Part shown: positions 37,750 to 42,458 of the stretch, in pieces
How the letters are laid out: each line of letters starts with the position of its first letter
How positions within the stretch are numbered: position 1 is the stretch's first letter
NCBI GenBank assembly: GCA_027451445.1
Contig: DAIDJG010000272.1
Span: 1-64,000, forward strand
Direction of reading: 5' to 3'
DNA: 64,000 nucleotides
From: Singulisphaera sp.
GTDB lineage: Bacteria > Planctomycetota > Planctomycetia > Isosphaerales > Isosphaeraceae
Notes under the pieces: generated by a model
The model's input: the letters and a program-made list of their open reading frames with translations, nothing else
Databases searched by the model: none
What the model was told of the DNA's origin: nothing
Program-made: the position numbers and the translations under genes

Positions 37750-38151
37750 TCACTTCGGCGGTGGAGGATCGGGCGGGACCGGGGGCAAGGGGTAGCGGGC
37801 AGCGTGCTCATATTGGAGGCGCATTCGTTTGCAATAGGCGCCGAAACGTTCCGATCGCCGCGCCTCGTCGGCCCAGAATCTGATGCGTGTTTCCTGCCCT
37901 TCCCGACCACCGTGGAGCGCGACAAGGTCAGGGGATCGCTTCATCGTTTCTTGTTCGATGCCCCAGTGCCACTGCGCGTCTTGCAACACCGCAACATTCA
38001 TGCGCACCATGTCTTCCCATCGCGCCGCCGCCTCTCGATACCGTGCGTGGTTCCAATAGAGCGTGCGCGCCGTGATTCCCGTCCAGAGAGCCAGTGCCAC
38101 CACCGCCACCGCGATCATCCACCGCCGGGTTGTCATTCGAGGGAAGGGCAT
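37750..38151 (-). CDS. Leader/tail family membrane protein (member 1)
   Basis: A 133-residue single-pass membrane protein of unknown function. The leader MTTRRWMIAVAVVALALWTG starts six residues into the protein as encoded from 38151 and forms the only transmembrane helix. The soluble part contains an Arg/Glu-rich helical region, and the C-terminus reads HAARYPLPPVPPDPPPPK. Leader and tail recur in the genes at 41083, 41389 and 42063. The ATG at 38151 is chosen because AGGAAAGG stands 8 nt upstream; an open frame to 38280 would add a second hydrophobic stretch. A 37-bp segment of the leader is identical to the one at 41327-41363. No domain of known function is visible. Confidence 0.65.
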   Translation of the reverse strand: MPFPRMTTRRWMIAVAVVALALWTGITARTLYWNHARYREAAARWEDMVRMNVAVLQDAQWHWGIEQETMKRSPDLVALHGGREGQETRIRFWADEARRSERFGAYCKRMRLQYEHAARYPLPPVPPDPPPPK

Positions 38152-38353
38152 CAGGACGACCTTTCCTTTTTGCAACACGATGAAGTCAACGGCCGCGCAA
38201 AGCAGACTGAACGCGACAACTGCCATCGTAGACTCCGACATCAGTTCGAGCGCGGTGCGAACTTTAACTTCATGCGACATTCACGTATTTCGCTTCATAT
38301 CTTCAACCGATGAACCTTCCGATCCAACGATCCGGACACCTGGTCCACTCCAT

Positions 38354-39658
38354 TCAGCGGCGTTTCTTTCGCTTCTTCGGCTTGCGGAAGTCGTCGGGGT
38401 TACTGATGGCGTACTGCCGCAGGAGGCTGGGAATATCCTCGCCGGGCCTCGGTTCGAGGAACGGGGCGTACAGCGCATCCATGCGGTCGACGACATCCGG
38501 ACGGTTCAGCATCTCGTGCAAGTGACGCTCGCCCTTGAGTGGCTTCAGCCGCAGAAGTGCGTGTGCCTGGCGGATCGACTCCGCGGCGCGGTGGGCGCCG
38601 ATGGCTTCGAGGGCTTCCGGCGTGCGGGCGATGTTCGCTTCGGGCGTTTCCATCAGGTAGCCATTGATGCCCTCGTTCCGAATCGTCTCATACGCCTCAT
38701 GCGCGAGGTAGTAGTTGGCGTGGGCCTCATCGATGAGGTCGAAGTCCATACCGTTTTCGTCGGCGTCTTCAGCCAGTTCTGCGACGGCAGCCTGCGCGAT
38801 CGAGAGCGCCTCGTCAACCTTCTCGATGACTGCCAGCGCCTCACCCGCGCTCTTCCTGCGATAGTCGTTTTTCGAACGAAGCGCCTCCTTGACCAGCGGG
38901 CGGGCGCCCTTCGGATCGGAGCGGGCAAGCAGTCCCAGGGCCACCTCGTAAGCGGACCCCGTGCGCCCGGCTGGATCAGCACCATCGCTCCAGGCCAGGA
39001 GGGCCGGCATCATTGGGAAAAGCGCGGAAGAAGGAACGGTACAGCCGGCGGATTCGAGCGCAATCATCACCCCGAGAAACTGGGGGTAATCAACACGGAA
39101 GACCTCCGGCGAGGTCAGGAAGGCGTGAGCTCGTGCGGGGTCGACCTTAAGGAGCGTCTCGGCCACGTTGTAGAACTCGCCCAGCTCACCATTGGACAAT
39201 CGCTCGAAGATCAGGTCATAAACCGCGGTGATGAACCCTGGCTCCCACCGCTCACGAGCCGTGCGAGCCTGGCGCCAGATGGACAGGAAAATGTTTCGCC
39301 GCTCATCGTTCCCGCATTTCCGCCAAGCACATGCCAGGGCCTCGGCGCAGGCCGACGAACCGTACCACACAAGCTTTCCATAGAGGTTCTCACGGATCAG
39401 CGGATCCTCGTGATCGACGAATGACGCCATTCGGCCGATGATCTCGGGTGTCGCGTGGAAGATAATCAGATTCCAGATGGTTGTAATCGCCGGCTGCAAA
39501 TCTAACTGGGTCGGTTGCCAGGCCCGTGGATCATCCATGGCACGCACAAGCGCTGGGACTGCCTTGGCCCCCAGCTTCGAGATCGAATACTCCGCGACGC
39601 GGTTTCCCTGAATCAGTTTTTCGACGAGTGCGTCAGCGTCTGGCTTTGTTCTCGGCAT
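38354..39658 (-). CDS. HEAT-like repeat protein with DMP19/DUF4375-like C-terminus
   Basis: A 434-residue soluble protein. Residues about 10-270 are built of helical repeats ('KLGAKAVPALVRAMDDPRAW', 'HEDPLIRENLYGKLVWYGS'). Near residues 300-400 the pattern NYYLAHEAYETIRNEGINGY, followed by LEAIGAHRAAESIRQA, resembles the DMP19 (DUF4375) domain, first known from a DNA-mimic protein of Neisseria. Many predicted family members have unknown roles. The tail is basic (KPKKRKKRR). The ATG at 39658 is preferred over 39901, because the 81 residues upstream look like a repeat-derived frame. The gene is transcribed toward the small membrane protein at 37750. Confidence 0.7.
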   Translation of the reverse strand: MPRTKPDADALVEKLIQGNRVAEYSISKLGAKAVPALVRAMDDPRAWQPTQLDLQPAITTIWNLIIFHATPEIIGRMASFVDHEDPLIRENLYGKLVWYGSSACAEALACAWRKCGNDERRNIFLSIWRQARTARERWEPGFITAVYDLIFERLSNGELGEFYNVAETLLKVDPARAHAFLTSPEVFRVDYPQFLGVMIALESAGCTVPSSALFPMMPALLAWSDGADPAGRTGSAYEVALGLLARSDPKGARPLVKEALRSKNDYRRKSAGEALAVIEKVDEALSIAQAAVAELAEDADENGMDFDLIDEAHANYYLAHEAYETIRNEGINGYLMETPEANIARTPEALEAIGAHRAAESIRQAHALLRLKPLKGERHLHEMLNRPDVVDRMDALYAPFLEPRPGEDIPSLLRQYAISNPDDFRKPKKRKKRR

Positions 39659-40249
39659 GGTTGCGAGCTCACTCGGTGTGCTGTAAAGCCTGCACGAATC
39701 GGCCCGATCGCTGGGGACGATTTTGCCCATCGCTGAACTCATAATAACTGATCGTTCACCATATCGCTCGCGTTTCAAGGACGGAGTCACGATCCGTTCG
39801 CGCAATTGCGGATCCCAGGCCTGAAGCCCACGAGCCACCCGCAGTGCGGGTATCGCACCTTGCCGCTCGGCGACGTCTGTGTCGGCCGCCGCGGTCGACA
39901 CCGGTTTGAGCGATCGAATTGATTTTCAGCGTCTTCACTAACTCGCGGCCAACGTCGGGAAAAATACCGAAACACCGGCCGCGAATGAGATTTGCGGCCT
40001 TCGCGATCGGCGTCATTCCATGTTCATATTAATTTTTTACATAAACACCGATAGGGAGGCCAAACCCCTTGAGATCCACCCTATTCGGTGTGGCCAGATT
40101 TGCTACTACCGCGAGCAGCCAGGTTCGGCCGAGTGTGCGTCAGTTCGATTTTGCTAATACTGAAGGTGTGCAAACACGTACCGGAGTTCGCGTGGATCGA
40201 TCAAGGAAGAAACCCATGGGTGGCGGGCCGGATCCCATCGAGCGAAGCG
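39659..40249. other. Intergenic stretch with no supported gene
   Basis: This 591-bp stretch has no open frame I can support. A minus-strand frame at 39756-40016 begins with plausible residues (DVGRELVKTLKINSIAQTG) and then turns into an arginine-rich, repeat-like sequence. An AT-rich spot (TATTAATTTTTTACAT) lies near 40030. The stretch may hold the promoter of the 434-residue gene and remnants of a small lost gene. Confidence 0.35.
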
Positions 40250-40567
40250 TCAGGCGGGATGATCACGGTAGCCAAAACACACGATCCCGCAGTCTTTGCA
40301 ACGATGCGCAATAAGTCGCGTTCTTCTGCCAAAAAAGCTGAACAGCGGCAGGTATTGGTTCTTGAGCAAGAGATCGCCATCGAAAAGCAGTTGTGCTTGC
40401 GGAAAGAATCCGGATCCCCAAGCCTTCAGTTCAATTGCGCCCTTATCCATCGGCCCAAGGACTCCGGTTCCTCGCGTCCTCAGTTCAAGCGATCCCTTAT
40501 CCATCGGTCCGTTGCATGCCGGGCAGCGTAGCTGCTCACCAGCGCTCTTCCGATTTCGGTCGCTCAT
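40250..40567 (-). CDS. Putative zinc-ribbon protein (DUF6487-like) with internal duplication
   Basis: A 105-residue cytoplasmic protein. CPACNGPMDKG near residue 15 and CKDCGIVCFGY near residue 93 supply the two CxxC knuckles of a zinc ribbon, as in the DUF6487 family. Between them the block GPMDKG-xLEL-x-G occurs twice in a row (about residues 20-36 and 38-54). The duplication is also visible in the DNA, where CCCTTATCCATCGG appears at two sites about 56 bp apart. Normal relatives have a single block. The start at 40567 is the ATG closest to the first CxxC. A metal-binding structural role is likely and the partner is unknown. Confidence 0.7.
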   Translation of the reverse strand: MSDRNRKSAGEQLRCPACNGPMDKGSLELRTRGTGVLGPMDKGAIELKAWGSGFFPQAQLLFDGDLLLKNQYLPLFSFFGRRTRLIAHRCKDCGIVCFGYRDHPA

Positions 40568-40592
40568 CGCAGTTCACCAACTTCCCCTTTCC

Positions 40593-40673
40593 CTAGTATG
40601 GCTTGTCCGCCATCGTACCAACGTGCGCCACCGCGATCATCAATCGCCGGGTTGTGATTCGGAGAAGGGGCAC
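40593..40673 (-). pseudogene. Truncated copy of the TTRRWMIAVA leader
   Basis: From GTG at 40673 the minus strand reads VPLLRITTRRLMIAVAHVG and stops after 26 residues. At 40627-40660 the DNA matches the leader of the genes at 37750 and 41083 with a few changes. The usual initiator ATG of the leader is now ATC. The soluble part and the proline-rich tail are absent, so this is a decayed family member. Confidence 0.6.
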
Positions 40674-40684
40674 CGGGCGAATCC

Positions 40685-41068
40685 TCAGTCCCTATGAATA
40701 TGCGCCGATTTGACACGCCCATCCCGTCCGAGTCGCATTACCAGGCATTCTGAGTCGATACTGATGAAGCTTCGTTCGGGGCCGAGGTAATACGTCAGGC
40801 CCCAAGTGATGGGCAAGCCCGTATTCAAGGGCTCCCCGAGCATGTCGATGACCTCTTGCCGCGTTTTGCCCTCAAGTGAATGCGACGCCAGGAGCCGATC
40901 AGCCATTGCCTGCCGAATACCGAGATATCCCTCGCTATCGTGCTGCCATGCGACAGGATCGAAAGGTCGCCCTGGGTTGCGGATGCGCCAAACGAGCCAT
41001 CCGACACCCAGGCCGACGATTGCCACGGCGATCATCAGCGTTCGGATGCGGAAGCGGAGGAGATGCAT
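40685..41068 (-). CDS. Small membrane protein with BamE-like domain and RTLMIAVA leader
   Basis: A 127-residue protein with one N-terminal transmembrane helix encoded by the leader FRIRTLMIAVAIVGLGVGWL. The soluble part, LEGKTRQEVIDMLGEPL followed by WGLTYYLG and the strand 'CLVMRLGRDGRVKSAHI', follows the SmpA/BamE-type alpha-alpha-beta pattern. There is no lipobox cysteine, so it is anchored by the helix instead. The leader is shared at DNA level with the genes at 41389 and 41912. It stands tail to head with the 92-residue gene (14 bp between). The BamE comparison is fold-level inference. Confidence 0.6.
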   Translation of the reverse strand: MHLLRFRIRTLMIAVAIVGLGVGWLVWRIRNPGRPFDPVAWQHDSEGYLGIRQAMADRLLASHSLEGKTRQEVIDMLGEPLNTGLPITWGLTYYLGPERSFISIDSECLVMRLGRDGRVKSAHIHRD

Positions 41069-41082
41069 GCTAACGTCCTCGA

Positions 41083-41361
41083 CTACTTCGGATCGGGTGG
41101 CTCAGTCGGCACAGGAAGCCAGGGACGCCAGGCAGCGTGCTGACACTCGCATCGCAGCGCGCGATACTCGGCAGTCACTCTCGCGTACTCTTCGGGCGAC
41201 GGAACTGCCGAGTCCCATAAGTCGCCACGCACCCAGAGCTGTTCGAGGCGACCGCACCAATCGGCCTTCGACGCGCGCTGGCGCGACGTCTGGCCGAGCG
41301 TCCACATGCCCAGCCCTGCCGCGACGACCGCCACCGCGATCATCCACCGCCGGGTTGTCAT
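41083..41361 (-). CDS. Leader/tail family membrane protein (member 2)
   Basis: A 92-residue single-pass membrane protein starting with MTTRRWMIAVAVVAAGLGMW and ending HAAWRPWLPVPTEPPDPK. The middle 50 residues (SKADWCGRLEQLWV and on) are charged and predicted helical. Start ATG 41361 lies inside a 37-bp stretch identical to the leader of the gene at 37750. Leader and tail are conserved while the middle differs completely from the other members, so selection or gene conversion must act on the two ends. It lies in a minus-strand string with 41389-41640 and 40685-41068. Function unknown. Confidence 0.65.
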   Translation of the reverse strand: MTTRRWMIAVAVVAAGLGMWTLGQTSRQRASKADWCGRLEQLWVRGDLWDSAVPSPEEYARVTAEYRALRCECQHAAWRPWLPVPTEPPDPK

Positions 41362-41388
41362 TCAGGGGAGGGGCACGGCCTGGTTCCT

Positions 41389-41640
41389 TCACTTCGGCGG
41401 TCGCGGGTCCGGCGGAACGGAGATCCAAGGGCGACGGGCGGCCGCATGGTACTTTTCGGCCATCGCAAAGTGATAGCGCACAAGCTCCGAGTCGGAGACG
41501 ATGGACCCGTTCGCCTCGTGATCCCACGCCCGAGCGGCGAAATCCTTCGAGCGCTGGTAGAAGACACCGGCGGCGAGCCCAAGAGCGACCAGCGCAACCA
41601 GGATCATCAGCGTTCGGATGCGAAAGCGTGGTGGGCGCAT
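41389..41640 (-). CDS. Leader/tail family membrane protein (member 3)
   Basis: An 83-residue single-pass membrane protein. It combines the other leader type (FRIRTLMILVALVALGLAAG) with the same proline-rich tail (AAARRPWISVPPDPRPPK). Between them lie about 35 residues including DHEANGSIVSDSEL. Its existence links the two leader families, FRIRTLMI and TTRRWMI, to one tail. Start ATG 41640. It is the first gene of a three-gene minus-strand string with 28 bp and 15 bp gaps. No catalytic residues are evident. Confidence 0.65.
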   Translation of the reverse strand: MRPPRFRIRTLMILVALVALGLAAGVFYQRSKDFAARAWDHEANGSIVSDSELVRYHFAMAEKYHAAARRPWISVPPDPRPPK

Positions 41641-41911
41641 CGACCGGCTCCAATCACCGTCCTCGTTTCATTTTCGTCGTCGAGGGCTCGGAATTCCATA
41701 GGGGTGGTATCCGATGCCCTCTTCCACCTTGGGCACCTTGCCGATCATCCGGTGTTGAGCCCGTTCGTCGACGTTCACGATGCGACACGCAACGCCCTGA
41801 GCGGCTTCTCAATCGCTCCGTCTTGGCGGATCGTCGTGTATGGCGAATTCCAGGGCGAGACCGCACCATGCACCATTCCTTCATATAAGCACACGTAATA
41901 TCAGACATTCC

Positions 41912-42037
41912 ATGGGCCACCCACGCTTTCGCATCCGAACGCTGATGATCGCCGTGGCGGTTTCTGCTGTCGCGCTATGGTGGGTCGTCGCACTCTATCG
42001 CATAATCATTCACAACAGATACGTCGAGATCCCATAA
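41912..42037 (+). CDS. Short leader-only membrane peptide
   Basis: A 41-residue peptide reading MGHPRFRIRTLMIAVAVSAV, then ALWWVVALYRIIIHN and a short end. It carries the FRIRTLMIAVA leader and the transmembrane helix but has no soluble domain and no proline-rich tail. It could be a functional small membrane protein or a truncated family member. The gene lies 25 bp upstream of another family member on the same strand. ATG 41912 is the only start that places the leader as in its relatives. Confidence 0.4.
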   Translation: MGHPRFRIRTLMIAVAVSAVALWWVVALYRIIIHNRYVEIP

Positions 42038-42062
42038 CGCAGTCCTTCAATGGGCCAGGCTT

Positions 42063-42458
42063 ATGCCCCCTCCCCGAATGACGACCCGTCGGTGGATGAT
42101 CGCGGTGGCGATCGTGGCGCTGGTGCTCGCGCTGGCCATGCGGGCGCGTCATCTGCAACGGATCGCCGGGTATTACGAGGCAAAGGCCGCCGAGTCTTTT
42201 GAGTCGGGCGCGCTGGTCGTCGGCGGCGCGGGTCCACCGGGGACGCAGTACGTCATCTCGCCCCGTCAACCCGCGGCGCACTACATGACGTTACCCAGCG
42301 ACCCGAAGACTCACTACGTAAACACAGTCGGAGCCTTGCGGCAGTACCACCGGCTCACGCCGCGAGGCGAATGGTATTTGGCAATGTGGGAGAAATACCG
42401 GCACGCTGCGCTCCGTCCCTGGCTCCCCGTGCCGCCCGATCCACCACAGCCGAAGTAG
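42063..42458 (+). CDS. Leader/tail family membrane protein (member 4)
   Basis: A 131-residue single-pass membrane protein, the only full-length plus-strand member. It starts MPPPRMTTRRWMIAVAIVAL and ends YRHAALRPWLPVPPDPPQPK. The soluble part contains two similar segments, GTQYVISPRQPAAHYM and KTHYVNTVGALRQYH, and an aromatic helix just before the tail (EWYLAMWEKYRHAA). That helix before the tail is also hinted at in the members at 41389 and 37750. The start could be 42063 or the ATG five codons later. Function unknown. It faces the three minus-strand members, so the family forms a local two-strand cluster. Confidence 0.65.
   Translation: MPPPRMTTRRWMIAVAIVALVLALAMRARHLQRIAGYYEAKAAESFESGALVVGGAGPPGTQYVISPRQPAAHYMTLPSDPKTHYVNTVGALRQYHRLTPRGEWYLAMWEKYRHAALRPWLPVPPDPPQPK

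Follow-up and report, generated by a model that had tools for sequence, protein, structure and literature searches.

A multi-copy family of small membrane proteins with conserved ends and a predicted helical hairpin in Isosphaeraceae

Leader and tail genes in a Singulisphaera window

The window analyzed here, meaning the whole stretch of 64,000 nucleotides from Singulisphaera sp. (contig DAIDJG010000272.1, positions 1 to 64,000), contains a group of small genes at 37750-42458 that share an Arg-rich N-terminal leader and, in part, a Pro-rich C-terminal tail (Table 1). Within the genomes searched, the four genes that carry both ends belong to an unnamed, multi-copy, Isosphaeraceae-specific family of mostly single-pass membrane proteins. 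The initial annotation, which had grouped these genes as small membrane proteins of one family with a common leader and tail, was correct on this point. Its seven leader copies of two types are present, one of them as a truncated fragment, and its four open reading frames (ORFs) ending in the tail (HAARYPLPPVPPDPPPPK, HAAWRPWLPVPTEPPDPK, AAARRPWISVPPDPRPPK and HAALRPWLPVPPDPPQPK) and its identical 37-bp leader stretches were confirmed.

Table 1. Leader-bearing genes and leader copies in the window; (+), forward strand; (-), reverse strand
Feature	Position	Strand	Leader type	Remarks
Leader and tail gene	37750..38151	(-)	TTRRWMIAVA	likely start ATG 38151; longest ORF start 38280; MPFPRMTTRRWMIAVAVVA...HAARYPLPPVPPDPPPPK
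Leader and tail gene, 92 aa	41083..41361	(-)	TTRRWMIAVA	MTTRRWMIAVAVVAAG...HAAWRPWLPVPTEPPDPK
Leader and tail gene, 83 aa	41389..41640	(-)	FRIRTLMI	shortest hairpin
Leader and tail gene, 131 aa	42063..42458	(+)	TTRRWMIAVA	MPPPRMTTRRWMIAVAIVALVLALAM...YRHAALRPWLPVPPDPPQPK
Leader-only gene, 127 aa	40685..41068	(-)	FRIRTLMI	FRIRTLMIAVAIVG membrane helix joined to another domain; tail absent
Leader-only ORF, 41 aa	41912..42037	(+)	FRIRTLMI	MGHPRFRIRTLMIAVAVSAVALWWVVALYRIIIHNRYVEIP; no tail
Orphan leader fragment, decayed copy	~40593..40673	(-)	TTRRLMIAVA, truncated	VPLLRITTRRLMIAVAHVGTMADKPY, then stop
37-bp leader stretch	38102..38138	(-)		identical to 41327-41363 (-)

A search with the 42063 protein as the query found the tail or leader elsewhere in its own genome (E 4e-8), and the likeness among the window copies is far above chance. 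The guanine-plus-cytosine content by codon position of the four leader and tail ORFs (0.67/0.51-0.59/0.70-0.78; 0.67/0.53/0.70 in the 37750 gene) is like that of neighboring genes. In the 41083 gene, a TGA codon replaces Arg5 of the relatives' leaders (MPLP-stop-MTTRRWM, 41361-41373 (-)); therefore, translation probably starts from the internal ATG at 41361, or the copy may be beginning to decay. The C-terminal part of the leader-only protein at 40685-41068 (TRQEVIDMLGEP...YYLGPERSFISIDSECLVMRLGRDGRV) appears BamE/SmpA-like by eye and has no Pfam match.

Distribution, coupling and selection of the two ends

Separate profile searches with the leader and the tail, as the initial annotation had suggested, recovered conserved ends with differing middles in many genomes. 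The window's genome contains 11 clear tail copies, seven of which lie outside the window, and approximately 26 leader copies. At E<=0.01, the tail profile gave 145 matches, of which the few close to the threshold are doubtful, in 32/45 Isosphaeraceae genomes and 17/21 genera, with up to 14 copies per genome; the ends are thus not confined to this locus. Tail-bearing relatives include Singulisphaera acidiphila DSM 18658 (NC_019892.1) and metagenome-assembled genomes of Isosphaeraceae. A class-wide search with a 44-row tail profile revealed that 31/348 genomes match at E<=1e-4, all 31 of them Isosphaeraceae, and that none of the 303 class genomes outside this family does. In a phylum-wide draw of 392 genomes, the tail was found in only two, both Isosphaeraceae, and the leader at E<=1e-6 showed the same restriction in the large draws. 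In these draws, 20-27 candidates were scored per genome; Isosphaeraceae genomes were still recovered, with nearly equal copy numbers. No model of Pfam or NCBIfam covers the family or gives a meaningful match, and a Pfam scan of 11 members returned zero matches, N_methyl and DUF1559 included. No relatives were found in padloc, PDB sequences or PDB folds or on plasmids, and the literature search found no paper on the family or containing the motif letters.

The tail follows the leader, and the leader is in wider use than the tail. The initial annotation had suggested testing whether the tail always follows the leader; a leader match of >5 bits lies upstream in 100/124 tail-bearing ORFs. Conversely, approximately 57 of the 100 best leader matches have a tail downstream in the same gene (the script counted 59/100, but for 41912 in the window and for C13:34344 the tail is that of a neighboring gene). 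In leader-only proteins, other domains or additional membrane helices are found. In nearly all members the tail is C-terminal, and in most it lies within the final 0-30 residues.

The initial annotation had also considered whether synonymous identity might be so high that duplication suffices to explain the ends, that is, that they are alike merely because the copies are young. In the tails of the window's genome, codons for shared residues are identical in 44% of cases (0.438) versus 41% (0.414) expected from codon usage, and in the sister genome G001 the value is 51% versus 41%. Synonymous sites of the tail are near saturation, and orthologue pairs across genera have a pN/pS of 0.34-0.56 and a dN/dS (nonsynonymous to synonymous substitution rates) of about 0.25-0.46. 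Because of this near-saturation and a dN/dS of <0.5, the tails are not explained by recent duplication. Codon identity in the leaders is 0.49 overall and 0.57-0.58 within subtypes versus 0.36-0.40 expected; therefore, their likeness lies partly at the DNA level, as the identical 37 bp would also have it. Orphan leader and tail fragments likewise fit young copies. Duplication alone is thus largely refuted for the tail and highly improbable as a full account, and it still explains the likeness of the leader DNA in part. Several decayed copies point to a turnover by birth and death: the orphan leader in the window, a broken member of Singulisphaera acidiphila whose leader and tail lie in separate reading frames (L197, G048:C1:378958-379208) and an orphan tail fragment in genome G010.

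Predicted hairpin architecture and rival explanations

The leader is best understood from multi-pass relatives. In a conserved sub-family (G010, Singulisphaera, G039, G041, G012 and others), membrane helices are predicted upstream and the leader is approximately the fifth; in a second sub-family, one or two predicted membrane helices precede it. As these relatives are 38-50% identical over their length, the upstream helices are coding. In 87/124 tail ORFs, one helix is predicted upstream of the tail. Counting helices and charged loops in the multi-pass relatives, we infer that the segment following the leader helix lies outside the cytoplasm, and the charge rule applied to the short members modestly favors the same orientation (K+R near the membrane helix, 4.0 before and 3.8 after; net +3.6 versus +2.5). 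A twin-arginine translocation (Tat) signal was rejected on inspection, no dedicated test being made, because the RR of TTRRWM is missing in the FRIRTLM subtype. The prepeptide reading of the initial annotation, in which a conserved leader is cleaved off a variable core as in bacteriocins or ribosomally synthesized and post-translationally modified peptides, would fit the conserved N-terminus, the diverse downstream sequence and the clustering of small genes. However, a leader that multi-pass relatives carry as one of their internal membrane helices is unlikely to be cleavable, the conserved C-terminus is unlike a core, and the 25 most frequent Pfam families among 106 neighbor ORFs (20 loci in three near-complete genomes) include neither a modification enzyme nor a peptidase-exporter. 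A prepeptide is thus extremely unlikely.

Beyond the leader, two motifs recur. Motif A, [YF]-x3-A-x2-[HY], whose His form is [YF]x3Ax2H, stands directly after the membrane helix in many of the proteins, and motif B, [YW]-H-x2-[ML]-x2-K-Y-x2-A-A, forms the first half of the tail. Hypothetical proteins of Singulisphaera acidiphila DSM 18658 that carry the leader, motifs A and B and the PW...PDPPxP tail belong to the family. In its strict form, motif A occurs in 37/87 tail proteins, whereas 500 shuffles gave 1.8 on average and never more than 7; of the leader-only proteins, only 1/29 has it (Fisher p=5e-5 against the 37/87). The middles, called unrelated in the initial annotation, therefore have this motif in common in many members and otherwise do differ. 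Motif A (Y-x3-A-x2-H) and motif B (H-x2-[ML]-x3-Y) mirror each other, which is what an antiparallel helix pair would give. AlphaFold2 models from a ten-sequence alignment reached a mean predicted local distance difference test (pLDDT) score of 93.5 for the 41389-41640 protein (83 aa), with helices at 6-47 and 51-69 and an ordered tail at 70-83, and of 90.9 for a relative (109 aa), with helices at 12-59 and 66-94 followed by the tail; the tail blocks exceed 90 pLDDT in both. From the helix limits, we infer a register that would pair the two His. In the 41389 protein, F34-A38-H41 of motif A would lie opposite H57-M60-Y64 of motif B, each pair summing to 98, twice the loop center of 49. In the 109-aa relative, the pairs Y39:Y89, A43:M85 and H46:H82 each sum to 128, with the loop center at 62.5.

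Covariation of the two ends, for which motif A was picked blind to its last residue, supports contact in this putative register. His occupies tail column 7 in 26/31 proteins with the motif A His versus 9/32 without it (Fisher p=1.1e-5), the strongest association among 33 tail columns. The association persists in 36 proteins at <45% identity (p=0.001), with only partial control for shared ancestry, and four proteins of the strict set have Tyr-Tyr in place of His-His. The idea of two conserved ends around a free middle consequently gives way to ends that covary and are predicted to pack together. One may ask whether the paired His bind a metal ion, or whether two hairpins bind heme, for surface metal or redox handling. 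The presence of His at both positions in 26/63 aligned members, the tendency of one to be lost with the other and the Tyr-Tyr substitutes are consistent with such a cofactor stalk. On the other hand, no conserved Cys or acidic ligand stands beside the His, one or both His are missing in about half of the members, and the recurrent neighbors include no metal-related gene; the proposal is accordingly doubtful.

These observations can be combined in a model in which the Arg-rich leader and the hydrophobic run would form an N-in signal-anchor helix that extends beyond the inner membrane and bears motif A. The chain would then turn back as an antiparallel second helix bearing motif B (H-x2-[ML]-x3-Y-x2-AA), which would return the ordered PW-x-PV-x-PDPPxP tail to the membrane-proximal base. 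If the ends are the two halves of the hairpin base, the variable middle would therefore be the tip, or an insertion at the tip. As a best guess, each paralogue would show its own tip to its own partner on a common membrane-anchored stalk, base and tail may bind a common partner or one another through oligomerization, and copies would multiply via duplication and decay with partly homogenized leader DNA. Membrane-anchored helical hairpins of Isosphaeraceae, with the ends as base and the middle as tip, are considered the best overall explanation, with a probability of roughly two in three (about 0.68).

Another reading raised in the initial annotation is a sorting or processing tag, in which, as in PEP-CTERM or LPXTG systems, a dedicated machine would read the Trp/Pro tail while the leader serves for export and the middle is cargo. 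The C-terminal position of the tail in nearly all members and its restriction to Isosphaeraceae are what such a tag would show, as is a leader protein with extra membrane helices that likewise ends in SWVSVPPDPPTPE (L118, G001:C441:8268-8558 (+)). This case, in which the tail end stands on a non-hairpin protein, is adjoined by two tail genes. Otherwise the tail is nearly confined to hairpin proteins: the DNA pattern P-D-P-P-x-P-[KE]-stop had 29 matches in 45 genomes versus 2 for a reversed control, mostly in known tail genes and once in the multi-pass leader protein just mentioned (G001:C441:8535), and a tail without hairpin helices is almost never seen. Moreover, no hydrophobic segment, membrane helix or basic cluster was seen after the tail in the members, and one orthologue group (L145, L155, L160 and L084) continues past its tail, PWMPVAPDPHAPG, with a conserved extension of 18-30 residues (..WLEQERRAK), so that the tail is not necessarily C-terminal. 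The covariation of tail and stalk residues and the ordering of the tail on the hairpin by AlphaFold2 also argue against a tag, which is quite unlikely.

The helical hairpin retains one sense of the cassette display raised in the initial annotation, namely its geometry, in which the stalk is conserved and the tip it bears is variable, and departs from it in every other. A display proper would require that the middle be actively diversified by recombination between paralogues. Middles of 15-94 residues that are dissimilar between paralogues, together with leaders partly homogenized at the DNA level, are compatible with this mechanism. In contrast, the middles of orthologues are alignable and under purifying selection over the aligned length, and no gene conversion ending at the middle was seen, which makes active diversification very unlikely.

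Several points weigh against the hairpin model. Strict motif A is present in under half of the members, the AlphaFold2 alignment is shallow (10 sequences) with contacts taken from helix limits and register, and Foldseek gave no significant match. The residues flanking the membrane helix are positive on both sides, so the topology is drawn from a modest charge excess and a reading of the multi-pass relatives. Finally, no shared functional partner recurs around the 20 loci.

Genomic context, known systems and significance

Transposases, DUF1559 and TPR are the Pfam families that recur among the 106 neighbor ORFs, as judged from the 25 most frequent families. The association with transposases (9/106 neighbors versus 4/108 at random loci in the same genomes) is unconvincing, and DUF1559 (5 versus 2) is not clearly enriched. 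In the window, a DMP19-like (PF14300) protein with a weak HEAT_2 match is encoded between tail genes at 38354-39658 (-). The DUF6487 (PF20097) gene at 40250-40567 (-) contains an in-frame 54-bp tandem duplication (18 residues, GPMDKG...), whose units, 40403-40456 and 40457-40510, are 76% identical at the DNA level. No Rfam elements were found in the region.

MgrB-type small bitopic regulators are short, single-pass and N-in, with a small periplasmic part. The hairpin family, as modeled, would resemble MgrB in these features, but the two have no periplasmic motif in common; with the MgrB model NF007635, the best score was 14.5 bits versus a cut-off of 40 bits, and one member matched at only E=0.029. 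As with PEP-CTERM and LPXTG proteins, a conserved C-terminal motif is found on many paralogues of one genome, but neither a hydrophobic helix nor a basic cluster stands at the C-terminus in the hairpin family, and its tail is tied to one fold instead of diverse cargo. The DUF1559/N_methyl pseudopilin-like proteins of Planctomycetes are likewise abundant and lineage-specific with a conserved N-terminal membrane helix, whereas the hairpin family lacks the G|FxxxE prepilin motif. CFP10/ESAT6-like and DksA-like coiled coils contain an antiparallel helix pair, as does the hairpin-family model, for which the best Foldseek E was about 1.3.

About 145 unnamed hypothetical proteins are thus brought together into one family with a motif, a predicted fold and a residue pair, and a hairpin, rather than tags, can produce the pattern of conserved ends around a variable middle. 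A covarying His-His (or Tyr-Tyr) base and a Trp/Pro tail beneath differing tips might even constitute a hetero-oligomeric or cofactor-binding surface system unique to Isosphaeraceae, a rather unlikely but conceivable extension. Isosphaeraceae are a group with an unusual cell envelope. Its restriction to Isosphaeraceae in the sample and its frequent occurrence in several copies, as many as 14 in one genome, make the family a candidate contributor to lineage-specific biology of the cell envelope.

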